A DNA stretch of 64,000 bases from positions 1-64,000 of the forward strand of contig JAGBBV010000007.1 of the NCBI GenBank assembly GCA_017938315.1. Reading direction: 5' to 3'. Source of the stretch: Lachnospiraceae bacterium (GTDB lineage Bacteria > Bacillota > Clostridia > Lachnospirales > Lachnospiraceae). Made by a program: the position numbers and the translations under genes. Below are positions 7,843 through 53,543 of this stretch, in pieces; the stretch's first letter is position 1, and every line of letters begins with the position of its first letter. The notes under the pieces are model-generated. The model searched no databases. It had not been told where the DNA came from and saw only the letters and a program-made list of their open reading frames with translations.

Positions 7843-8667
7843 ATGAGCATGAACAATTTGGAATTACTTACAACTGCACTGGCTTATCTGGAGGATAACC
7901 TGACAGAGAAAATCACCACAGATGACGTGGCGAAGGCCTGCTATTGCTCCAAATCCACTCTGGAAAAACTGTTTCGATGCGTCAGCCACATGTCTGTCCA
8001 TGATTATGTTATCCGCAGACGGATTACCAAGGCTGCCAAGCGTCTTTTCTTTGACCGGGAGGCCTGCGTTTTAGATGTAGCTGTAGAGTACGGCTATAAC
8101 AGCAACGAAGCCTTTACCCGCGCATTTAAACAGATTTGGAACTGTACACCTTCTGAATTCCGCACTAAAACACGGTATTCAGATCTTTTCCCAAGGCTAA
8201 CTTTTGACCTTGATGAAGGAGATACAATCATGAAAAAAGTAGATATTTCTGAATTATATGATTTTTTACGCGGCCGGGTGGGCTGCCACTATATCCTCTG
8301 TGATATTGTGGGCTTAATCCCTATCAACAATGTAGCCCGGGCAGCAGGGGATCTTGCCATTATCGAAGCAATCAAGCGTATGAACGATGTGGCCGGACCT
8401 GAAGACGTAGTCTTCCGTATCGGCTCAGATGAATTTGTTCTTCTGACTGACTCTAAGGATGAAAACTACGTAAAAAAATTGGCTTCCGAAATCGAAAGCC
8501 AAAACGGTAACCCTATTTGCTACGAGGGTCATGAAATTCCTCTCTCCCTTTATATTCTGACCCGCACTGCCATTGACGGCAAAAATGCAAATCACCACGA
8601 AATCCTTTCCCAGTTCAACAACGCGATGGAGGATTTCAAGAGTACCTTAAAAGAAAGACATTCCTAA
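7843..8667 (+). CDS. AraC-type regulator fused to degenerate GGDEF domain
   Basis: Residues 1-110 form an AraC/XylS double helix-turn-helix: first helix pair in TTDDVAKACYCSKSTLEKLF, then DVAVEYGYNSNEAFTRAFKQ. Residues 130-270 resemble a GGDEF diguanylate cyclase core: CDIVGLIPINNVARAAGDLA matches the metal-binding strand, and RIGSDEFVLL replaces the RxGGDEF loop. The change of GG to GS and the missing cyclase surroundings suggest a sensor or dead domain rather than an active cyclase. The start is supported by AAAGGAG 7 bp upstream. The AraC domain is certain; the GGDEF relation rests on pattern matching. Confidence 0.8.
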   Translation: MSMNNLELLTTALAYLEDNLTEKITTDDVAKACYCSKSTLEKLFRCVSHMSVHDYVIRRRITKAAKRLFFDREACVLDVAVEYGYNSNEAFTRAFKQIWNCTPSEFRTKTRYSDLFPRLTFDLDEGDTIMKKVDISELYDFLRGRVGCHYILCDIVGLIPINNVARAAGDLAIIEAIKRMNDVAGPEDVVFRIGSDEFVLLTDSKDENYVKKLASEIESQNGNPICYEGHEIPLSLYILTRTAIDGKNANHHEILSQFNNAMEDFKSTLKERHS

Positions 8668-8723
8668 TTTTGTTGTTAATTTTTTCTTATTTTTGAGCCA
8701 TATAGGGAGCAAGGGGTATGTGA

Positions 8724-9185
8724 TTAGGACTTCTGTTTCATCACATACTCCAGAAAAGCTTCCAGCCCTTTTGTCACATCCTGATAAGTGGCATCAAAGT
8801 CTCCCGTATACCAAGGGTCTGCCACATCCCGTCCTATCCCTGCAAAGGTAAGTAATTTATAAATCTTCTCATCCGGGTCGCCGCCGGCAATGCGGTTCAT
8901 GTTCCGAATATTCCACTCGTCCATCCCAATCAGGTAATCATAGTAATCGTAGTCTGCCTTGGTCATCTGTACTGCCCGGTGGGGCACCACGGGGATACCT
9001 TCGCGGCGCAACTTGTTTACTGTGCCGTGGTGAGGCGGATTGCCAATTTCTTCGCGGCTGGTGGCCGCGGAGGCGATTTCGAATAGGTGGGATAAACCAC
9101 GGGTGTTCACCATATGGGTGAAGACGGATTCTGCCATGGTGGAGCGGCAGATGTTGCCGTGGCAGATGAATAGTACTCTTATCAT
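8724..9185 (-). CDS. Low-molecular-weight protein-tyrosine phosphatase
   Basis: This is a cytoplasmic phosphatase of 153 residues. The P-loop CHGNICRS (residues 8-15, C-x5-R-S) and the general acid motif DPWYTGDF near residue 120 are both present. Such enzymes often dephosphorylate tyrosine kinases of polysaccharide systems or arginine-phosphate proteins. The gene's first 32 bp are one copy of a direct repeat whose other copy is at 13850-13881. The present 5' end and ribosome binding site (GGGAG) therefore appear to have been supplied by the inserted element. The coding sequence remains intact. Confidence 0.95.
   Translation of the reverse strand: MIRVLFICHGNICRSTMAESVFTHMVNTRGLSHLFEIASAATSREEIGNPPHHGTVNKLRREGIPVVPHRAVQMTKADYDYYDYLIGMDEWNIRNMNRIAGGDPDEKIYKLLTFAGIGRDVADPWYTGDFDATYQDVTKGLEAFLEYVMKQKS
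9154..9185. other. Left attachment core (attL)
   Basis: These 32 bp cover the ATG and first ten codons of the phosphatase gene and match 13850-13881 in direct orientation at 29 of 32 positions. The neighbouring integrase gene begins 165 bp to the right. The exact crossover lies somewhere in the identical stretch TGGCAGATGAATA. Confidence 0.75.
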
Positions 9186-9304
9186 TTCTCTAAAACTCCC
9201 TTTTTTCCTGTATTTTCAATACTTTAAGGCATTTTCATTTTTCTTGATTTTCAGCATTTCTTCTTAAATCTTCTTATATTTTCTCATGTTTTTCTCGGCA
9301 AAAG

Positions 9305-9349
9305 TGGTAAATTTGATGGTAAATTATTTCATTTTACCATTTACCTTTT
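9305..9349. repeat. Putative integrase arm-type sites, left
   Basis: GGTAAAT occurs twice in direct orientation (TGGTAAATTT then TGGTAAATTA) and twice inverted (ATTTTACCATTTACC) within 45 bp next to the integrase stop codon. The same motif pair occurs near the right end at 13767-13790. This pattern suits arm binding by the integrase N-terminal domain. Confidence 0.5.
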
Positions 9350-10549
9350 TTACTCTCCCACAACACGTTTTAATTCGACCTGTGCATCTTCAAATTCCAC
9401 ATGCGTATAAGTATTTAGCGTGACACTAATATCTGAATGCCCCATGATGTACTGTAATGTTTTCGGGTTCATTCCACTTCTTGCCATATTGGAACAAAAA
9501 GTGTGTCTGCATACATGAGGGGTAACCTTCGGCATCTGTACACGATAAATACTGTTGTACTTCTCCCAAATGTGTTGCATATACTTTTCCCAATGCAGAG
9601 CAATCATAGGCATATCGTTTTTATCCAAATACAAAAAGCCTGTATAACCATCTACCATAGGCTCTACTTTAGGAGCAACACGATTTTCAATAATCTTACG
9701 GAAACATTGTCCCACTTCTGCTGTCATTGGTACATAACGCACACCACTTTCTGTCTTGGGTGCTTGTATGATATACTGCATTTGACTTGTACGCTGTAAC
9801 TGATGATTTACGCGAATACGCTTTTCTTTAAAGTCAATATCTGCAAGTGTCAATCCGCAAAATTCAGAAATACGCAAGCCTGTATGGAACAAAATATAAA
9901 TACCCTCATAGTATTTACAAAAATGCTTGTCCTCTTGAACAAATTTCAAATATTCTCTTTGCTGTTTTCTTGTAATGGCTTCTCTGGTAACACTATCGTT
10001 TACAACTACAGATGCAAGTTCAAATTGAAATGGATTTTTACGAATTAAATCGTCGTTCTCTGCCATCTGAAAAGCAGGTCTAAGTACACCTCTGATAGAA
10101 TGAATAGAACTATATCCTCTTCCATCTACCTTCTGTAATTTGATTAACCAAGCCTTTGCATCAGACAATTTCACCTTGTCAATCCGTTTACTTCCGAATG
10201 GGTCTTTTTTCAGAATGTTAATTACAGTTTTATACCCTGCTTCCGTATTGTGCCTTACTCCTGTTTTTAAGGAAACATATTTTTCTACTAATGACAACAC
10301 CGTATGATTACCGCCATTTGAAACAATCTGATTAAACATACCCTGTTCAATCTGTTTTTCCTTTTCCCGAAGTGACAAATCCTTCCGTTTTCCCTTTGGG
10401 TATGGGTCATTATGGCCTAATCTCCAACTGTAAACATCCCTCTTAATTCCATCCATATCAAGGTATGTAAAACGATATCTACCGTCTGTTCTTCGGGTCT
10501 CTCCATTGTGTAAAATTCTATTTCTTTTGTCTCTTCTTTTTTCACTCAT
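9350..10549 (-). CDS. int: Tyrosine integrase, Tn916/phage type
   Basis: This recombinase would insert and excise the 9.2-13.9 kb element. The 399-residue protein has an N-terminal arm-binding region, a core-binding SAM-like domain (about residues 85-180) and a catalytic domain. Catalytic residues are visible: Arg in HTGLRISEFCGL, HVCRH (His345, Arg348), MGHSD (His371) and the nucleophile Tyr381 in NTYTHVEF. The ATG at 10549 follows AAAGGAG by 10 bp and is preferred to the upstream start. The gene sits next to attL, as usual. It is intact, so the element may still be mobile. Confidence 0.94.
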   Translation of the reverse strand: MSEKRRDKRNRILHNGETRRTDGRYRFTYLDMDGIKRDVYSWRLGHNDPYPKGKRKDLSLREKEKQIEQGMFNQIVSNGGNHTVLSLVEKYVSLKTGVRHNTEAGYKTVINILKKDPFGSKRIDKVKLSDAKAWLIKLQKVDGRGYSSIHSIRGVLRPAFQMAENDDLIRKNPFQFELASVVVNDSVTREAITRKQQREYLKFVQEDKHFCKYYEGIYILFHTGLRISEFCGLTLADIDFKEKRIRVNHQLQRTSQMQYIIQAPKTESGVRYVPMTAEVGQCFRKIIENRVAPKVEPMVDGYTGFLYLDKNDMPMIALHWEKYMQHIWEKYNSIYRVQMPKVTPHVCRHTFCSNMARSGMNPKTLQYIMGHSDISVTLNTYTHVEFEDAQVELKRVVGE

Positions 10550-29660: not shown

Positions 29661-29785
29661 TTAAATTGGAGATGTTTGCTTTCATCTTTAAACCCAACTT
29701 TGTTGATAGGATTTGAACCTATACTTCATGATTACAAGTCATGCGTGCTCCCATTGCACCACTGAAGTTAAGCAACCCAATTTAA
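29661..29785 (-). ncRNA. tRNA-like RNA (Thr UGU-type arms) in a long stem
   Basis: Read on the minus strand, a tRNA-like core (29769-29696) has a GTGC/GCAC D-like arm with a GG loop, and an anticodon-like arm CATGA-CTTGTAA-TCATG with TGT at the anticodon position. It also has a T arm ATAGG-TTCAAAT-CCTAT, closed by only AACTT/AAGTT. No 7-bp acceptor stem or CCA end exists. Instead the core is enclosed by TTAAATTGG/CCAATTTAA (9 bp) plus GTTGCTT/AAGCAAAC with one bulge. This resembles the tRNA-mimic layout of bacterial Y RNAs, but no Ro gene is in the window. The rest of 29464-29884 shows no gene. Confidence 0.6.
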
Positions 29786-45070: not shown

Positions 45071-45745
45071 TTAATTACCTTTTGTATATGTTCCGGTTAT
45101 ATGTCCGTATGCTATGATGTTTCCCTTTGCACCTTCTGTTACCTCATCAAGTGATAGTGCATTTGCCTTAAATTTCATATTGGAATTGTTAAACGCTCCC
45201 TTGGCTCTCTCCACCGGCTCCTTCAGTGCAAAAACATAGATTTCATAGTCGTGTGTACCGCCGGGAGGATAGGGTCCTATGTATTCCTCTTTCGGTGCCC
45301 AGCCCTTTGGAAGATTTGTCTCTGTGACATTGTTGGATTTCCAGTGAATCCAATCTTCTACAGTGGTATCCACCATATAGATGACATAGCACCCTGCCCC
45401 GGGAACAGGTTCCCACGCAAGCTGCGGGGAAACATTTGATCCATTTTCTGTGTTGGTGATGATGCTATCCCATACACCGTCATGTAAATCTTCTGACGAT
45501 AACTCAAACGTAGCAAGTCCTGTATCTTGGAAAATGTCGTTGCTGGTCTCTGCTGTAACTGCTTCCTCTGCCACCTCTTCTGTCACGTCCCCTGTCACAT
45601 CTTCTGTCACGTTTTCTGATGCAGTTTCCGTCTGTACTTCTAAGGCATCTGCGCTTTCTTTAGTACCTCCACATCCTGCCACTGCAAATGTCAAAGCACC
45701 CATAACCATACTAACCACCACTAATTTCTTTCCTGTTTTTACCAT
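45071..45745 (-). CDS. PEBP-family (YbhB/YbcL-like) lipoprotein
   Basis: This 224-residue lipoprotein (lipobox VAGC) has an acidic linker and a phosphatidylethanolamine-binding-protein fold. The ligand-pocket motifs are NVSPQLAWEPVP, DWIHWKSNNV and YIGPYPPGGTHDYEIYVFAL. Bacterial members are thought to bind small anions or lipids; none has a firm role in this lineage. Its start overlaps the stop of the upstream lipoprotein gene by 7 bp, so translation is coupled. A strong terminator follows. Confidence 0.88.
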   Translation of the reverse strand: MVKTGKKLVVVSMVMGALTFAVAGCGGTKESADALEVQTETASENVTEDVTGDVTEEVAEEAVTAETSNDIFQDTGLATFELSSEDLHDGVWDSIITNTENGSNVSPQLAWEPVPGAGCYVIYMVDTTVEDWIHWKSNNVTETNLPKGWAPKEEYIGPYPPGGTHDYEIYVFALKEPVERAKGAFNNSNMKFKANALSLDEVTEGAKGNIIAYGHITGTYTKGN

Positions 45746-46641
45746 GCAGATACCTCCCTAAATTCTTCCTCTGAAAATGGCAAATCCTCTTTTTCAATCT
45801 GCTCAAAATCATTTAACGCCATCTCCAGGGTTTCTTCTTTATAATCTTCCAGTGCATCATCATACACTTCCATTTTTAATGTAATAATTCCTGTATCTGT
45901 CACTGTACCCGACAAAATATGAATTCTCTCAAGCATCATCCCGCCATCCTTTTCACTGGCAAGGACACCCATAATGGTTGTTTCAAAGTCTACAAGTTCT
46001 GTACTTTTAAGGGTTGGGTCTACATTTGTATAGAAGAATTCCAGGGTATCTCTTAGCCGGATATAAATATCACCTTCTGCTGTGGTCTTCTTCCATGCTG
46101 TCCCACCCAATTTTTTGTGGTTTATCTTCCACTTTTTGCAGGACTCACCGGTTATCGTCCATTCTGAAGTAGCGGCATCTCTTTTGTAGGTAACTGTTTT
46201 TTCGATTGTCTGGGGAAGTATTCCCAAAGGATCTGCTCCCTGTACTTCTACAACAACCTCATCTACCGCATCATATTTCCCATCCTCTGAAGCCGTATTA
46301 TCTGCTGCAACAACAGTATGTGATTTCAGTGTTAAACTGCCATATCCGTCTTTCAATAGTTCTTCTGCCATTTGCGTATCCGGCACTTGAATATTATACT
46401 GTTCATAGGTTTCAAGTACATGACACATATCGTTTATATCATATGCTTTACCCGCTGTAGGGGCACCTATTTCCGGTAGTTGCACAATTGCTGCCTCATT
46501 AGCCGCATCTGCCACGCTCCCGCTTGCCACTTCACTCTCCTGTTCTTTTCTGCCTTTGCCTGCGCAAGCACTTAACAGTATCCCCACTATTGCAGTCATA
46601 AGTAAACAGCTTATTTTTAATTTACACATTTTTCTCTTCAT
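45739..46641 (-). CDS. Lipoprotein of unknown function, coupled to PEBP gene
   Basis: This 300-residue exported lipoprotein has signal MKRKMCKLKISCLLMTAIVG and lipobox LLSAC. The mature part contains no catalytic motif I recognise; the region YDAVDEVVVEVQGADPLGIL...VTYKRDAATSEWTITGESCKKW looks like a DUF4878/NTF2-like beta sheet. AGGAG lies 8-9 bp before the ATG. It overlaps the PEBP gene by 7 bp, which suggests a joint surface function. Confidence 0.75.
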   Translation of the reverse strand: MKRKMCKLKISCLLMTAIVGILLSACAGKGRKEQESEVASGSVADAANEAAIVQLPEIGAPTAGKAYDINDMCHVLETYEQYNIQVPDTQMAEELLKDGYGSLTLKSHTVVAADNTASEDGKYDAVDEVVVEVQGADPLGILPQTIEKTVTYKRDAATSEWTITGESCKKWKINHKKLGGTAWKKTTAEGDIYIRLRDTLEFFYTNVDPTLKSTELVDFETTIMGVLASEKDGGMMLERIHILSGTVTDTGIITLKMEVYDDALEDYKEETLEMALNDFEQIEKEDLPFSEEEFREVSAW

Positions 46642-46765: not shown

Positions 46766-47725
46766 TTATGAATAACTTTCTCTGTATTTTGATGGTGTAG
46801 TTCCGGTCATTTTCTTAAATACTTTAATAAAATAATTGGAATCCGTATAGCCTACTCTGGCTGCAATTTCACCGATTTGAAGTTCTGTCTCGGCAAGCAT
46901 AATCTGCGCAAGATTTACCCTCATCTTTACTAAGTAATTAAGGCAGGTCATGGATGTTTCTTTAACAAATAACTCATTTAAGCGGTTTCTGTTTATGGAA
47001 AATTCTTTCAAGACATCTTCAAGTGTCACCTTATCCCCGATATGTTCACTTAAATATTGTATGATTTCCCCAACCAGCTCATCGCTTGCTATGTCGTTTG
47101 CTCCCGAATACATCACGCATAAGTCGCCGATTGCTTTCGTATCTTCCTGCCTTTCATTTACCACATGGGCTGCAGGCTTGGCACAAACATAGCTGATAAA
47201 GCTGAGGAGCTCCATCAGATATGACCGGCTGCGGCAAGGCCAATAGCCGTCACTTTGCCCTGTCAGTTCCTTATTCATAAGCCGGATGATTTTTTTAATC
47301 TTTTCATAGGCTGAGACGCCGGGCACAAGCACGGTATTTGACTTGTTTGGTTCTTTATCAAATGACTTAATCAATAAATAATCCTGATAAATGGTTCTTC
47401 CAAATGCATTCTCAAATTCGCCTGAACTGATGCGTTCTAAAGTAAATTCCTCACGGATTTCCGTTGTTTGCATAAAAACAGTGGTGGTGGAAACATCTTT
47501 CCCCGGGAAAAAGGAAACTTCCTCATCCGTCAGCATAAAGATTGCAGGCGCTGAAACCATCTTTTTGATACCATTGCTTTCAAAAGAAAGGGTCCCTTTA
47601 TCCAGCGCAAGAATTTTGTAGGTATCTTTATCATTGATAAATTCAGACACCCCTTCACATTGCTGCACATAAATATGAACAATGCGGTTCCATTCTTTAT
47701 CATAGCTTCTGGTAAATAATTCCAT
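46766..47725 (-). CDS. AraC-family transcriptional regulator
   Basis: This 319-residue regulator has a C-terminal double helix-turn-helix (about residues 215-315: TLEDVLKEFSINRNRLNELFVKE, then QIGEIAARVGYTDSNYFIKVFKKMTGTTPSKYRES). The N-terminal ~190 residues form a cupin-like sensing domain without a recognised ligand. GGGGAGG precedes the ATG. It is a single gene after the gatB terminator and may control the neighbouring lipoprotein genes; this is inferred only from position. Confidence 0.9.
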   Translation of the reverse strand: MELFTRSYDKEWNRIVHIYVQQCEGVSEFINDKDTYKILALDKGTLSFESNGIKKMVSAPAIFMLTDEEVSFFPGKDVSTTTVFMQTTEIREEFTLERISSGEFENAFGRTIYQDYLLIKSFDKEPNKSNTVLVPGVSAYEKIKKIIRLMNKELTGQSDGYWPCRSRSYLMELLSFISYVCAKPAAHVVNERQEDTKAIGDLCVMYSGANDIASDELVGEIIQYLSEHIGDKVTLEDVLKEFSINRNRLNELFVKETSMTCLNYLVKMRVNLAQIMLAETELQIGEIAARVGYTDSNYFIKVFKKMTGTTPSKYRESYS

Positions 47726-47806: not shown

Positions 47807-49231
47807 TTAAATGTCCATCAATTTCTTTTCCAAGATTTCTTTGATGACTGCTGTATCTGCTGTATTTTTAAGTTCTCTCATACAAGCGCCGAAAAGTGCC
47901 TGTTTTGCTTTTACTTTACCGTTCTTGTAGTCTTCAATGGCCTGGGCATTTTCTGCAAATACCCTATCCATAATTCCTTCAATAACGGAAGTATCCACTT
48001 TCGCATCAAGGCCGTTTTCTTTACAGTATGCTACAGGGTCTACGCCTTCTTCCAGCACAGCTGTAAGAATCTTTCTACCGCTCATTCTGTTTACGTCGCC
48101 GCTGTCTACCATTTTGATAATGGCAGCAAGGTCATCTGCGGTAATTGTAAGGTCTCCCAGAAGTTTACCGTTTTTGCGAAGAATACCTACGCAGTCTGTG
48201 AGAATCCAGCCTGCTGCATTTTTGGCATCACAGCCCATGGCTACTACATCATCTAAAAGCTTGCTTACATTATGGTTGTGAATCAGCATATCGATTTCTT
48301 TTTCGGAAATGCCTGCCTCTCTGTATGTATCAGCTTTCTCATCGATTTCCACAGGTTTTGCAGCCTTAATCTGTTCAAGCCACTCATCATCGATAATGAT
48401 GGGCATTAAGTTTGCATCCGGGAAATAACGGTAGTCTGCTTCTGTTTCCTTATTACGCATCGCAAAGGTTTTTCCGCTTGCATCGTCAAAACGTCTGGTT
48501 TCCTGAACAAGCTCCTCTGTTTCAAATTCAATGGCATCCATATGGCGCTGCGCCTCATAGTGGATAGCACGCTCAATTGCCTCAAAGGAAGCCATGTTCT
48601 TAATCTCTGTACGCACGCCGAATTCTTCACTGCCTTCGGGACGCACGGAAATATTTACGTCACAACGCATAGCACCTTCTTCACATTCGGAAATACCGCC
48701 GGAACGGAACATGGATTTTAACTTATTTAAGTACACCAGAACTTCTTCTGCGCTTCTAAAGTCAGGCTGGGTTACAATTTCAATAAGAGGCACACTGGTA
48801 CGGTTAAAGTCTACCAAAGATGCTTTTCCCACGTGAACCAGCTTACCTGCATCCTCTTCCATATGAATCTGCTTAATACGCACATCCCTTGTCCCCTCAG
48901 AGGTCTTTAAGGTTACAAGCCCGTTTGTACAAATGGGATGATTGAGCTGTGTAATCTGATAAGCACAGGGAAGGTCCGGATAATAATAATTCTTTTTATC
49001 AAAAGTAGTGTATCTGCTGATTTCGCAGTTTAACATAAGGCCTGCTGTCACCGCAAGTTCTACTACCTTCTTATTCATTACGGGAAGCATACCGGGCATA
49101 CCACTGCAGGCAGGGCATACGCAGTCATTAGGTTCTTTGGCTTCTGAATGTCCGCCACAGGAACAGAAAATTTTGGATTTGGTATTTAACTCCACATGAG
49201 TTTCCAGTCCGATAACAATTTCATATTTCAT
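47807..49231 (-). CDS. gatB: Asp-tRNA(Asn)/Glu-tRNA(Gln) amidotransferase subunit B
   Basis: This is the kinase/transamidase subunit that activates and amidates mischarged Asp- or Glu-tRNA. The 474-residue protein is full length. The N terminus YEIVIGLETHVELNTKSKIFC and the motif DFNRTSVPLIEIVTQPD are conserved. The Zn-binding cysteines lie in CSCGG and CVCPACSGMPG, and the helical YqeY-like C-terminal tRNA-binding domain is present. It follows the GatA-like gene by 2 bp. Because the neighbouring GatA homologue lacks glutaminase residues, the ammonia source for this GatB is unclear. Confidence 0.96.
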   Translation of the reverse strand: MKYEIVIGLETHVELNTKSKIFCSCGGHSEAKEPNDCVCPACSGMPGMLPVMNKKVVELAVTAGLMLNCEISRYTTFDKKNYYYPDLPCAYQITQLNHPICTNGLVTLKTSEGTRDVRIKQIHMEEDAGKLVHVGKASLVDFNRTSVPLIEIVTQPDFRSAEEVLVYLNKLKSMFRSGGISECEEGAMRCDVNISVRPEGSEEFGVRTEIKNMASFEAIERAIHYEAQRHMDAIEFETEELVQETRRFDDASGKTFAMRNKETEADYRYFPDANLMPIIIDDEWLEQIKAAKPVEIDEKADTYREAGISEKEIDMLIHNHNVSKLLDDVVAMGCDAKNAAGWILTDCVGILRKNGKLLGDLTITADDLAAIIKMVDSGDVNRMSGRKILTAVLEEGVDPVAYCKENGLDAKVDTSVIEGIMDRVFAENAQAIEDYKNGKVKAKQALFGACMRELKNTADTAVIKEILEKKLMDI

Positions 49232-49233
49232 AC

Positions 49234-50418
49234 CTATTCACCTGCCCTTTCTGCGCTTCCTGCAAGACTGAGAAGCACGCTTTCGCTAAATGCTTTGCCC
49301 AAAAGCTGTACGCCGCCGCTTGTAAGTGCGGGTACACCGATTAAGTTTGCAACTGCTGTAAATACACTTTCTTCAAATACAAGTCCGAAGGCTTTATCCA
49401 TCTCATAAGCAGTGTAAGATGTCTTACTGCATACAGGAGTTAATACTGCATCATACTTTTTCATAAGCTCTGCAAATTTCTCTGCTACCACACGGCGCAC
49501 CTTCAGGGATTTGCCGTAGCAGTCATCATAACGGTTCTTTGATAATACGTCGGAGCCATAGAGAATCACTGCCTTGGTAAGGAAGTTGAAGCCTTCTGTT
49601 CTGGTATTTACATATAATTCGTCGATATTTTTATATTCTGCGGCACGATGTCCGAATTTTACACCGTCATAACGGGAAACGTTATTACAGGTTTCCGCTG
49701 TCATAAGAATCTGCCATGCCGTGTTTGCAACATCAAACATATCAACGGAGATTTCTTCTACCACTACACCTGCCCCACGGAGCTTGTCAGCATAAGCATT
49801 TACTTTCTTTGCTGTATCTTCGTCTGCTTTTTCCATCAGTTCTTTTACAATACAAACTTTTTTTCCGCTAACGGAAAGGTCTGTGCTGTAATCATACTTT
49901 TCTTCTTTTAAGGAAGTACCGTCCTTTTCATCATGACCGGCAATTACATCCATCACTTCCTTGATTCCGTTTACATCTGCAGCATAAACACCAAGCTGCT
50001 CACCGGAAGCTGCACAGGAAATAATTCCGTAACGGGAAACGGTTCCGTAAGTAGGTTTTAAGAAATCTACTCCGGAAAGTGATGCCGCTCTACGGGTTGC
50101 ACCGTTCATATCAACACCCAGTGCTGCCTTTACTTCGCCATCTGCAACAGCCTGCGCTGCTGCACCTTTAAGCTGTTCCTGTTTTTCAGCATAGTAAGAA
50201 AATTCACCTACCAGGTCAAGGCCAAACTCACCAACATGAGTCTTGCCTGCCATTTCATAGCCTGCCTTTTCAAGGCGGTCAACTGCTTCTGCACTAAAAA
50301 GCGGTTTAAATCCTTCCAATATGCGGGAGCCTGCTGCAGCCTGCACCCCCTTTACAAGAATAGTGTCGTCAACTGCGATGGTTCCTTTATCTGATATTTT
50401 ACTCGTATAATTATTCAT
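49234..50418 (-). CDS. GatA-like pseudo-amidase without catalytic triad
   Basis: This is a homologue of the GatA glutaminase subunit, 394 residues against about 485. The fold is recognisable (VQAAAGSRILEGF, FLKPTYGTVSRYGIISCA, VIAGHDEKDGTS, and a C-terminal segment ALTSGGVQLLGKAFSE). All catalytic residues are gone: AVKDN reads AVDDT (Lys to Asp17), the PGGSSGGSAA loop is replaced near residues 78-92, and GSDTGGSIRQ reads GVDMNGATRR (Ser to Ala107). About 60 N-terminal residues are missing. The frame is intact and co-transcribed, so it is probably a structural subunit. Confidence 0.85.
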   Translation of the reverse strand: MNNYTSKISDKGTIAVDDTILVKGVQAAAGSRILEGFKPLFSAEAVDRLEKAGYEMAGKTHVGEFGLDLVGEFSYYAEKQEQLKGAAAQAVADGEVKAALGVDMNGATRRAASLSGVDFLKPTYGTVSRYGIISCAASGEQLGVYAADVNGIKEVMDVIAGHDEKDGTSLKEEKYDYSTDLSVSGKKVCIVKELMEKADEDTAKKVNAYADKLRGAGVVVEEISVDMFDVANTAWQILMTAETCNNVSRYDGVKFGHRAAEYKNIDELYVNTRTEGFNFLTKAVILYGSDVLSKNRYDDCYGKSLKVRRVVAEKFAELMKKYDAVLTPVCSKTSYTAYEMDKAFGLVFEESVFTAVANLIGVPALTSGGVQLLGKAFSESVLLSLAGSAERAGE

Positions 50419-50428
50419 CTTACGCACC

Positions 50429-52504
50429 TCACTTTACAAGTCTGGGAACTTGCCAACTGTCTTCACTACGTTCGGGAGCACCTTCTAAAAGGCTTTCTCT
50501 TGAGAATTTCTGTTCTCTTACGTCCTCACGGAGTACATTGGTCATGGGCATTACATGCACCATCTCTTCCACCTTTTCCGTATCAATTTCTTTCAGTGCC
50601 TCTTCATGGGTTTTCATCATCTTGAAGATATCCTGCATATCACTTTCTTCTTTTTCGGAAAGTGATAACTGATTCAGCTGTTGGTCGTTTGAGAAGGTGG
50701 AACGCTTTTCACTGCGTGCTTTGCCACTGCCGGTGGTAAGTCCCCGCGCTGTAAGTGCACTGGTGCCGCCAAGCAAATGAACGTCTTCAAGCTGCTGGTT
50801 GGTAACCTCGCTGGGAGCTCCAAGCAAAAGGTCCTGTGCATTACCGTTAAGCGGGAATGCGATAACTTCCAAAATCTTTTCTTCGTCTGTAAGAAGCATT
50901 ACGGTACGGTCAATACCCGGTGCCATACCTGCATGCGGGGGTGCACCATACTGGAATGCGGTATAAAGTGCATTGAATCTGCTCTTTAATTCTGCTTCAG
51001 AATATCCGGCAATTTCAAATGCCTTCTTCATAATATCGATATCATGGTTACGAACTGCACCGGATGCAAGTTCGATACCGTTACATACAAGGTCATACTG
51101 ATAAGCTAAAACCTGTGTAGGATCATCACCAAGAAGTGCTTCCATTCCCCCCTGAGGCATGGAGAAAGGATTGTGTGTAAAGATGGTATCTCCTGTCTCC
51201 TCATCGATTTCATACATGGGGAAATCAACTACGAAACAGAATTCAAAGGAATCATCCTTAATCAAATCAAGCTGGTCTTTTCTTGCAAGGTAAGAACGGA
51301 TATGTCCCGCTTTCTTTTCGGTATCTCCCTTCTTATCATCACAGATAAAGAACAATGTTTCGCCTTCTTTTACACCTGTAAGTTTAATAATCTCAGCTTT
51401 CTTCTCATCGCTTAAGAACTTTGCGATAGGTCCTGCAAATACCCCTTCTTTTAAAGTAATGTATCCAAGTCCCCCAAGTCCCACTTCAGGAGATGTTGCA
51501 AACTTTAAGGAATCTTCAAAGAACTTTTTGGACTTTCCTGCACAGTTTGCTACAATACCTCTTACCGGTTTTCCCTTAAATGCAGGGAAATCTACGTCTG
51601 CAAAGAAGTCTGTGAGGTCACAGATAATTAAGGGGTTACGAAGGTCCGGTTTATCGGAACCGTATTTCATCATCGCTTCTGCATAGGTAATACGGCGGAA
51701 AGGTCTAGGCGTTACTTTCTTATCAGAGAAAGTTGTAAAGGTATCATAAATCACATCTTCACACACTTCCAAAACTTCTTCCTGGGTTGCAAAAGCCATT
51801 TCAAAGTCAAGCTGGTAAAATTCACCGGGTGAACGGTCTGCTCTGGCATCCTCATCTCTAAAACAGGGAGCCACCTGGAAGTATCTGTCAAAGCCGGATA
51901 CCATAAGGAGCTGTTTAAACTGCTGAGGTGCCTGAGGAAGCGCATAGAACTTACCCGGATGTTTACGGCTGGGCACCAAAAAGTCTCTGGCACCTTCCGG
52001 AGAGGAAGCCGTAAGAATGGGTGTCTGCATATCAAGGAAGTTCAATGATTCCATCTTGTTACGCATATGACGGATAATCTGGGAACGTTTCACAATGTTG
52101 TCATGGTTCTTGGGATTACGAAGATCCAGATAACGGTATTTGAGACGAAGTTCATCCTTGCTAAGGTGAGAGTTTCTCACTTCAAAAGGAAGCATATTAT
52201 GGCTCTTTCCCAGTACCTGAAGGGAATCTGCCACAAGCTCTACATATCCTGTTGCAATCTTTTCATTTACGGTTTCTTCATCTCTCTTATTTACGATACC
52301 GCTTACGGAAATAACCGTTTCTCGGTTGACATTCTTCAGTAACTCCTCATTGTGGACAACCACCTGTGTTACGCCTGTGTAGTCGCGCAAATCGATGAAG
52401 ATAACGCCACCATGGTCACGCACTACATCTACCCAGCCTGCAAGCTGGACAGTTTTTCCGACATGCTCATCGCGTATGTCGTTGCAGAATAGTGTTCTAT
52501 ACAT
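50429..52504 (-). CDS. aspS: Aspartyl-tRNA synthetase fused to GatC
   Basis: Residues 1-575 are a bacterial AspRS: OB-fold anticodon domain, motif 2 (FRDEDARADRSPGEFYQLD), a GAD insertion, and motif 3 near APPHAGMAPGIDRTVMLL. His31 in RDHGGVIF is the residue seen in non-discriminating AspRS that also charge tRNA-Asn. After a ~36-residue linker, residues 613-691 form a complete GatC (LSLSEKEESDMQDIF...LREDVREQKFSRESLL...WQVPRLV). The ATG at 52504 has AAGGAGG 7 bp upstream. It leads an operon with the GatA-like gene (10 bp gap) and gatB, under a T-box. Confidence 0.9.
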   Translation of the reverse strand: MYRTLFCNDIRDEHVGKTVQLAGWVDVVRDHGGVIFIDLRDYTGVTQVVVHNEELLKNVNRETVISVSGIVNKRDEETVNEKIATGYVELVADSLQVLGKSHNMLPFEVRNSHLSKDELRLKYRYLDLRNPKNHDNIVKRSQIIRHMRNKMESLNFLDMQTPILTASSPEGARDFLVPSRKHPGKFYALPQAPQQFKQLLMVSGFDRYFQVAPCFRDEDARADRSPGEFYQLDFEMAFATQEEVLEVCEDVIYDTFTTFSDKKVTPRPFRRITYAEAMMKYGSDKPDLRNPLIICDLTDFFADVDFPAFKGKPVRGIVANCAGKSKKFFEDSLKFATSPEVGLGGLGYITLKEGVFAGPIAKFLSDEKKAEIIKLTGVKEGETLFFICDDKKGDTEKKAGHIRSYLARKDQLDLIKDDSFEFCFVVDFPMYEIDEETGDTIFTHNPFSMPQGGMEALLGDDPTQVLAYQYDLVCNGIELASGAVRNHDIDIMKKAFEIAGYSEAELKSRFNALYTAFQYGAPPHAGMAPGIDRTVMLLTDEEKILEVIAFPLNGNAQDLLLGAPSEVTNQQLEDVHLLGGTSALTARGLTTGSGKARSEKRSTFSNDQQLNQLSLSEKEESDMQDIFKMMKTHEEALKEIDTEKVEEMVHVMPMTNVLREDVREQKFSRESLLEGAPERSEDSWQVPRLVK

Positions 52505-52519
52505 AATAAAACCTCCTTG

Positions 52520-52750
52520 ATAAAATATAAAATCCCGGGAATATTCATCAATATTCCCGGGACGAGTAAACAAAATTTAACCCGCGGTGCCACCCGCATT
52601 GATACTAACTAATAGTATCCTCTTTTCCATATAAAATTATACATAAATCAGAGTGTTCCCAAGCTTACTACTCATCTTAAACGCGCTTTCAGTCGGTGAC
52701 GCATTCTCCCTGATAGACTTTCCACAAAAGCCGAGTCTCCGATAAAAATA
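52520..52750 (-). promoter_or_regulatory. T-box riboswitch of aspS operon
   Basis: The minus strand carries the T-box sequence GGGTGGCACCGCGGG (52595-52581) followed by a 12-bp terminator stem CCCGGGAATATT with a four-base loop (52561-52534) and a U-rich tail. Upstream are Stem I-like segments and a GAGTAGTAAGC stretch. Uncharged tRNA would favour antitermination. A GAC in ACCGACTGAA could be the Asp specifier, but I cannot assign it with certainty. Confidence 0.9.
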
Positions 52751-52772
52751 ATAGCAAAGCGAAAAACATTTG

Positions 52773-53543
52773 TCAACATAGTTTTTTGTTCATATTTGAT
52801 AACAGTAACATCATTTTTTCTCCAACTTCTCTATATTCATCCATCGTCATAGGCCACTTATGTGCTTCTTTCTTTATAAGTTCCCTAATCTCTGCAAGTA
52901 ATGCTCTCTTTTCTTCCGGAAACCTATCTATTTCATTATTATAGATATTGTGAACTGTTTCGTATGCCGTATAGGCAGCAAGTGTATCGCAAAATCTGAC
53001 TTCACTTACTCCTTCCTGCCAGAGACTATATAAACTAATACTGCAACATTCTTGCTCGTCTTCCTCACATGCTACTTTCCATGATAAATATTCTGCTATT
53101 GTTTTGAATGCCAACGATGCCTTTTCATCACTTCCCTTTTGCAACATAATAAATTTTTCCAATCCTATTTTATCTATTAATTTATTTCCTGTAATGATAT
53201 GTTCTAATTCATGCCTAAGTGACGCCCTATAACAGTGCTCTTGCGAATCGTTTGTCATATGTAACTCTATGCATTTAACAACTACACCATTTTCTTCTTT
53301 GTATAATGCCACTGACGGAAATATTGCACCTAAATGAAAGTCTATTTCCGTATTCTCTAATCCTACCGCATTCTTCATTTCTTTATATATTTTTAGATGG
53401 TCCGGCATAGTATTTTTATATTGAAAACTATTATCTTTTGTTTCTGCGTATTTAGCAATGTCTGGGATTATTATTTCATAATCAAATATATTTTTTTTCT
53501 TTATTTTACACTTATTAAATATTTTACTAATTAATGAGCTCAT
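52773..53543 (-). CDS. Putative zinc metallopeptidase
   Basis: No named family was recognised for this 256-residue soluble protein. RHELEHIITGNKLID contains HELEH, which fits the HExxH zinc-peptidase signature. A downstream helix TIAEYLSWKVACEED, about 45 residues later, supplies a Glu that could be the third ligand. No signal peptide is present, so it would act in the cytoplasm. It is AT-rich and lies between the T-box and another small AT-rich ORF, a possible minor insertion in an otherwise core region. Confidence 0.6.
   Translation of the reverse strand: MSSLISKIFNKCKIKKKNIFDYEIIIPDIAKYAETKDNSFQYKNTMPDHLKIYKEMKNAVGLENTEIDFHLGAIFPSVALYKEENGVVVKCIELHMTNDSQEHCYRASLRHELEHIITGNKLIDKIGLEKFIMLQKGSDEKASLAFKTIAEYLSWKVACEEDEQECCSISLYSLWQEGVSEVRFCDTLAAYTAYETVHNIYNNEIDRFPEEKRALLAEIRELIKKEAHKWPMTMDEYREVGEKMMLLLSNMNKKLC

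Follow-up and report, generated by a model that had tools for sequence, protein, structure and literature searches.

A GatA homologue without glutaminase residues is conserved in an aspS::gatC-gatA-gatB operon of Clostridia: a candidate glutaminase-free asparagine transamidosome

Introduction

In the textbook machine GatCAB, an amidotransferase, glutaminase, tunnel and synthetase are coupled to one another. Its bacterial forms, including the asparagine transamidosome (S. aureus, 2df4; A. aeolicus, 3h0l; P. aeruginosa, 4wj3), resemble the locus presented here in the GatB residues, in GatC, in the GatA fold and in the AspRS partner. In contrast to these complexes, our locus has lost the glutaminase and glutamine-binding residues of GatA, its GatA has a shorter N-terminus, and AspRS and GatC are fused in 27/30 of the loci compared. 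AspRS-GatC fusion proteins as such are described by the NCBIfam model PRK12820; the fusion found here has the same domain order and scores 461.2 bits, below the cut-off of 1379, and differs in that it accompanies a dead GatA. With archaeal GatDE, the locus would have in common that a GatB-like amidotransferase draws its ammonia from an asparaginase-type protein, provided that an asparaginase-like gene adjacent to some of our loci encodes a partner of the complex. However, the amidotransferase is here GatB and not GatE, GatA and GatC are retained, and the asparaginase-like protein scores far below the GatD cut-offs. A weakened glutaminase site is likewise found in yeast mitochondrial GatFAB with GatF truncated in the domain shaping this site, which uses ammonium chloride better than the full-length complex (PMC4027206); there, however, the change is a laboratory truncation of GatF and the GatA residues are intact.

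The window analyzed here is a stretch of 64,000 nucleotides from a Lachnospiraceae genome. A preliminary description, made from the sequence alone, had proposed that it contains a GatA homologue which has lost every catalytic residue inside an intact aspS-gatA-gatB operon. Among the matches listed in the open-licence literature, we found no prior report of a glutaminase-dead GatA. The observation proved correct and larger than first noted, and the sequences compared below are most likely to represent a conserved asparagine transamidosome that works without a glutaminase. A lineage kept for long without glutaminase would separate the structural from the catalytic role of GatA and would show how ammonia of another origin can sustain tRNA-dependent amidation. 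As a caution, an annotated gatA need not mean a glutamine-dependent enzyme. In the following, GatA* and GatB* denote the degenerate GatA and the GatB of the same operon.

Organization of the operon

The three genes aspS::gatC, gatA* and gatB* are adjacent on the minus strand and almost touch each other (Table 1), which confirms the intact operon and adds the fusion of aspS to gatC. The start of the fusion gene was picked by eye at the ATG following AAGGAGGT, while the longest frame starts at 52573. GatA* matches the Pfam amidase family PF01425 with 194 bits, in line with homology to the amidase fold, and reaches 269.6 bits with the gatA model TIGR00132, below its equivalog cut-off of 481.1; it clearly descends from GatA. 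The fused GatC lies above the TIGR00135 cut-off of 47.1 bits. With the GatE model NF003107, GatB* scores 151.6 bits (cut-off 456), identifying it as GatB and not GatE.

Table 1 Features of the operon and its upstream region in the window.
Feature	Position	Strand	Remarks
gatB*	47807..49231	-	474 aa; catalytic and zinc residues intact; NF004012 558 bits, cut-off 338
gatA* (degenerate GatA)	49234..50418	-	394 aa counting from ATG; alternative GTG start at 50427 possible
Ala107 codon at nucleophile Ser178 position	50098..50100	-	alignment with 2df4
Asp17 codon at catalytic Lys79 position	50368..50370	-	alignment with 2df4
aspS::gatC fusion	50429..52504	-	NF001750 740.5, PF02686 43.8 and TIGR00135 51.7 bits, over cut-offs
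GatC domain at C-terminus of AspRS	50447..50662	-	PF02686 match in genome search
T-box leader match, divergent	52555..52688	-	RF00230 49.1 bits, E 5.5e-10 (cmscan); gathering score 93
Promoter-like TTGACA-17-TATTAT upstream of leader	52748..52776	-	by eye; similar sites in aligned relatives

Loss of the glutaminase site in the window protein

Residues were numbered by alignment with S. aureus GatA (2df4), and GatA* positions are counted from the ATG. The reading of Asp17 in place of the Lys of AVKDN is borne out, as Asp17 occupies the Lys79 column. The GGSSGGS segment, whose serine loop had been described as replaced, is indeed lost and appears as a gap, i.e. by deletion. Ala107 had been assigned to the cis-Ser; the substitution is real, but its column is that of the nucleophile Ser178, and cis-Ser154 lies in the deleted loop. 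In addition, the Arg358 column holds Val and the Asp425 column Ser. We take these two columns to be the counterparts of R334 and D418 of yeast GatA, a mapping of our own. In the yeast study, R334 and D418 are named as glutamine-binding, and S154, cis-S130 and K52 as catalytic (PMC4027206).

Only 16 residues precede Asp17, compared with 78 ahead of Lys79 in S. aureus GatA, so that the N-terminus is about 60 residues shorter; a C-terminal hairpin segment is also missing. Judged from the alignment, the missing segments would have carried the glutaminase site or, presumably, surrounded it, and their loss may have opened the mouth of the tunnel. An AlphaFold model of GatA*, built with 13 close sequences, reached a pLDDT of 61.4 and a pTM of 0.73. 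The top ten Foldseek hits with this model are all GatA chains, confirming the fold; given its pLDDT, the model is too weak for arguments about the pocket or the tunnel.

Distribution and conserved losses of GatA*

A scan of named GTDB genomes yielded 14 GatA* loci, all from MAGs named Lachnospiraceae, Oscillospiraceae or Clostridia; in five of these names, goat rectum or the colon of roe deer or water deer is mentioned. By search, GatA* occurs in at least 4/299 genomes of the family, 3/37 of the genus and 13/391 of the class. The working set comprises 30 loci, with the near-identical L089 and L090 both counted and two rows dropped whose contigs were already represented, L085 by G310 and L088 by G602. 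A gatB gene was seen in 29 of them; the contig of G461 ends within gatA, so this locus is absent from the GatB rows.

Lys79 is lost in 30/30 GatA* (29 Asp, one Glu), and no Ser is found in the cis-Ser154 column of any locus; these two losses, first seen in the window, are shared by its relatives. Likewise, the glutamine-binding Arg358 and Asp425 are lost in 30/30 GatA*, whereas both are present in 46/46 canonical GatA. These canonical rows were chosen by the motifs GSSGGS and IKD/VKD, so their 46/46 conservation of Lys and cis-Ser is by construction, while that of Arg358 and Asp425 is not. The nucleophile column is more variable, with Ala in 17, Ser in 9, Thr in 3 and Phe in one of the loci. 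That every catalytic residue is lost therefore holds for the window protein, whereas the nucleophile Ser stays in nine loci. The Asp of the former GSDTGGS loop is kept in 29/29 GatA*. In stop-to-stop frames, a median of 21 residues precedes the Lys79 column in GatA*, compared with 87.5 in canonical GatA. A misaligned triad is excluded by the alignment with a solved GatA and 46 canonical GatA, and the agreement of 30 loci makes an error of sequencing or assembly very unlikely.

Selection and evolutionary history

Median dN/dS values (Nei-Gojobori) were 0.11 for GatA*, 0.044 for GatB* and 0.052 for AspS. They are based on 20 unsaturated pairs out of 120, which were formed only from rows with near-full-length AspS; the 100 pairs with saturated dS were excluded. 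GatA* is under purifying selection, and a recent pseudogene is ruled out by the open frames together with the dN/dS of about 0.11. For 322 pairs of the GatA* set, the GatA-to-GatB divergence ratio amounts to 1.48, versus 1.25 for 249 pairs of the canonical set, and the constraint on GatA* is therefore only mildly relaxed.

GatB* carries the canonical residue in 11/12 catalytic or zinc columns in 29/29 rows; the columns examined include the catalytic Glu, His, Glu, Asn and Ser as well as the four zinc Cys, all found in 29/29. The twelfth column holds Thr in 26 and Ser in three rows, while canonical GatB mostly has Ser. In a tree of 76 GatB sequences, the 29 GatB* form one side of a 100/100 branch. 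Within GatB*, G237 and G618 branch first, followed by G430, in a tree that was midpoint-rooted and for which the tool warned of long branches meeting. AspRS and GatC are encoded by separate genes in exactly these three loci. Judging from their early branching, the inactivation of GatA probably predates the AspRS-GatC fusion.

Routes to asparaginyl-tRNA and the specificity of AspRS

We further looked into the gene content of 18 GatA*-bearing genomes; the assemblies are incomplete and each search started with a permissive first screen. In 12/18 genomes, no protein other than GatA* matched PF01425, while the other six, namely the window's genome and five more, also contain a canonical GatA. GlnRS was found over the cut-off in 14/18 genomes, with a partial one in G461, and AsnRS in 1/18 (G586). 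In five genomes with a completeness of 91-96% (G385, G490, G683, G467 and G618), GlnRS was found, and AsnRS and canonical GatA were not. Because of this combination, the dead-GatA complex looks like their sole route to Asn-tRNA, unless all five assemblies happen to lack these genes. The AsnRS-like match in G385 is an archaeal-type Asp-tRNA(Asn) ligase, and G013 has such a ligase as well. The genome searches found neither GlnRS over the cut-off nor canonical GatA in G602 (90% complete), nor GlnRS over the cut-off in G511 and G586. For these three genomes there is no evident source of Gln-tRNA, unless GlnRS falls into an assembly gap or GatCA*B serves Gln too, which counts against a neat picture.

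The search for a second gatCAB in the window's genome, suggested in the preliminary description, was positive: contig C39 and the 4.2-kb contig C33 each carry a further GatA, and the genome holds three GatB and three GatC in total. GlnRS is present there, and AsnRS over the cut-off was not found. Since this genome has canonical GatA, an argument from necessity does not apply to it. As a separate observation, the small contigs L079 (G000 C33, 4.2 kb) and L080 (G310 C57, 6.0 kb) carry a canonical aspS::gatC-gatA-gatB set in two species; these sets share 95% DNA identity, compared with 82-87% for other shared loci, pointing to either contamination of both assemblies or recent transfer.

With respect to AspRS, a His at the motif position (HG versus LG) is, as we presume, the mark of a non-discriminating enzyme. 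The operon AspRS carries the RDHGG motif, whereas the AspRS on C7 of the window's genome has NLG in place of DHG. Five out of five congeners searched that do not have GatA* encode one AspRS with RDHGG and one without. From these pairs, it seems that the operon AspRS probably takes the place of the usual non-discriminating AspRS; exceptions are G013 and G385, which have the archaeal-type ligase in addition, and G237, where the RDHGG AspRS is a separate gene.

Such a role of AspRS could in itself account for the operon wherever a canonical GatCAB coexists: the operon would mainly supply the non-discriminating AspRS, while amidation, or at least the ammonia, would come from the canonical GatCAB. 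Both the canonical GatA in a third of the GatA* genomes, the window's included, and the separate RDHGG AspRS of the congeners agree with this. However, GatA* and GatB* are conserved also in genomes with canonical GatA, and the remaining 12/18 genomes yielded no canonical GatA, which makes this explanation unlikely. Less probable still is a complex that no longer amidates, with GatA* and GatB* as leftovers or serving another reaction of Asp-tRNA. It would fit the missing glutaminase site, but the catalytic and zinc columns of GatB* are kept under purifying selection, and the five genomes mentioned above would be left with no known route to Asn-tRNA.

With a probability of about 0.6, we rather regard GatA* as a retained pseudoenzyme, i.e. 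a structural subunit of a transamidosome dedicated to Asn, composed of AspRS::GatC, GatA* and GatB*, that would use ammonia from outside GatA. This reading is supported because Lys79, cis-Ser154, Arg358 and Asp425 are lost at every locus while the GatB* residues are intact and selection is purifying. Against it stand the canonical GatA of six genomes, the AsnRS of G586, the gene content of G602, the incompleteness of the assemblies and the nucleophile Ser in 9/30 loci. Regarding the earlier suggestion that a conserved dead subunit implies a structural role or another ammonia source, the purifying selection, the single GatB* clade, the intact GatB residues and the genomes in which no other GatA or AsnRS was found support it well as an inference; in the window's own genome, the argument from necessity fails. 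A tRNA-channelling role, suggested there as well, is conjectural. In the proposed mechanism, AspRS, which is probably non-discriminating, would load Asp onto tRNA-Asn, and GatB would activate the Asp side chain with ATP and then amidate it. GatA* would hold GatB and GatC together and carry the ammonia tunnel, making no ammonia itself. The ammonia would most simply be free ammonium, which would gain access through the space left by the lost N-terminal segment, GGSS loop and C-terminal hairpin; the better use of ammonium chloride by truncated yeast GatFAB is in line with this. Some lineages may instead obtain it from an asparaginase-like protein encoded next to the operon. While the loss of the site, its conservation, the GatB residues, the operon and the gene content found by search are observed, the specificity of AspRS, the assembly of the complex, the opened tunnel, the origin of the ammonia and any activity are deduced from sequence and gene content.

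An asparaginase-like gene next to the operon

Asparaginase-like genes were recognized by a GGTI motif in nearby frames, and 28 loci had enough flanking sequence, on one side or both, to be assessed. A gene of the GGTIC subfamily adjoins the operon in 11/28 loci, and a broken copy is present in L091. The gene is located downstream in eight loci (G013, L087, G385, G511, G687, G604, G683 and G430), upstream in L094 and L095, and upstream and divergent in G490. Among the 12 genomes with GatA* as single GatA, seven have the neighbor gene, three lack it (G602, G467 and G586) and two are not assessable (G461 and G618). Where canonical GatA is present (six genomes), the gene adjoins the operon in G013 alone; the window's genome contains only another asparaginase-like subfamily, located elsewhere.

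As a special case of the scaffold role proposed for GatA*, the asparaginase-like protein might have taken over from GatA as a dedicated ammonia source, as archaeal GatD serves GatE, and would then release ammonia from Asn or Gln beside the complex. The adjacency at the 11 loci, including the seven genomes without canonical GatA, speaks for this idea, although these loci are not independent, because related loci share history. In agreement with it, no asparaginase-like frame was found in 5/5 canonical gatCAB loci (16-20 kb each), and the best PDB match is archaeal GatD (2d6f, 47 bits). However, asparaginase I follows closely with 43.2 bits, and in NCBIfam 6/6 GGTIC proteins scanned match type I asparaginase better than GatD, all far below both cut-offs; the GatD models give 70-116 bits for five adjacent proteins (cut-offs 310-324), which thus do not qualify as GatD. 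Moreover, the column that we take to be the catalytic Lys holds Gln, the gene is absent at 17/28 loci, the window among them, and its adjacency may instead reflect Asn breakdown. We see a dedicated asparaginase as possible rather than probable.

Both asparaginase-like subfamilies, GGTIC and GGTIG (L252, L075, L128 and others), have Gln or Glu at the presumed catalytic Lys column, and these proteins may differ from ordinary asparaginases. In L252, the asparaginase-like gene is followed by one for an AlaX-like alanyl-tRNA editing protein (8251-9408), and frames of this kind lie downstream in L087, L253 and L257. The AlaX-like protein of G385 scores 169 bits with AlaXM (cut-off 300); the others were recognized by eye.

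A T-box-like leader upstream of aspS

T-box control of tRNA-dependent amidation for Asn was, judging by its title, reportedly treated by Saad in 2012. In that system, one of three aspS genes is T-box regulated (PMC2494555). Upstream of aspS in the window, we observed a T-box-like antiterminator sequence and, read by eye, an inverted repeat with a run of T's behind it. The RF00230 match rests mainly on its 3' half, and the 3' antiterminator sequence is common to relatives. In 4/4 relatives searched, RF00230 scores 35.6-45.7 bits, also below the gathering score; searches of Rfam at the gathering thresholds gave no T-box. Folding of the leader was not better than that of shuffled sequences (z -0.71).

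Across the 29 loci surveyed (L090 excluded), the T-box sequence is found upstream of aspS in 23; two of the other six, L087 and G602, have no upstream sequence. All 22 leaders with a retained 5' domain share an AAC within a GAACRCT-like conserved stretch. It fits an Asn specifier, short of proof since many neighboring bases do not vary either, and the specifier loop departs from the standard form. In G013 (L075, upstream of 7515), the T-box antiterminator and terminator are kept and the 5' domain is missing; a TTGACA/TATAAT pair occupies its place.

Such a leader also enters the most far-reaching version of the hypothesis, namely a GatCAB freed of glutamine dependence, in which an open-tunnel GatA scaffold and a recruited asparaginase-like ammonia source from outside the amidase family would realize the GatDE principle a second time, independently and inside GatCAB, induced by uncharged tRNA-Asn. 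We consider this combination rather doubtful.

Some further features of the window were noted. Downstream of gatB* lie an AraC-like regulator (46766-47725) and a lipoprotein-like gene (45739-46641), both on the minus strand and named by eye; they are shared with G311 and had no match in the compared stretches of G310, G013, G221 and G237. At 29705-29762 on the minus strand, an Rfam tRNA match of 51.8 bits, without an ARAGORN call, sits within an AT-rich stretch (roughly 10-34 kb) with a GC content of 29-38%.
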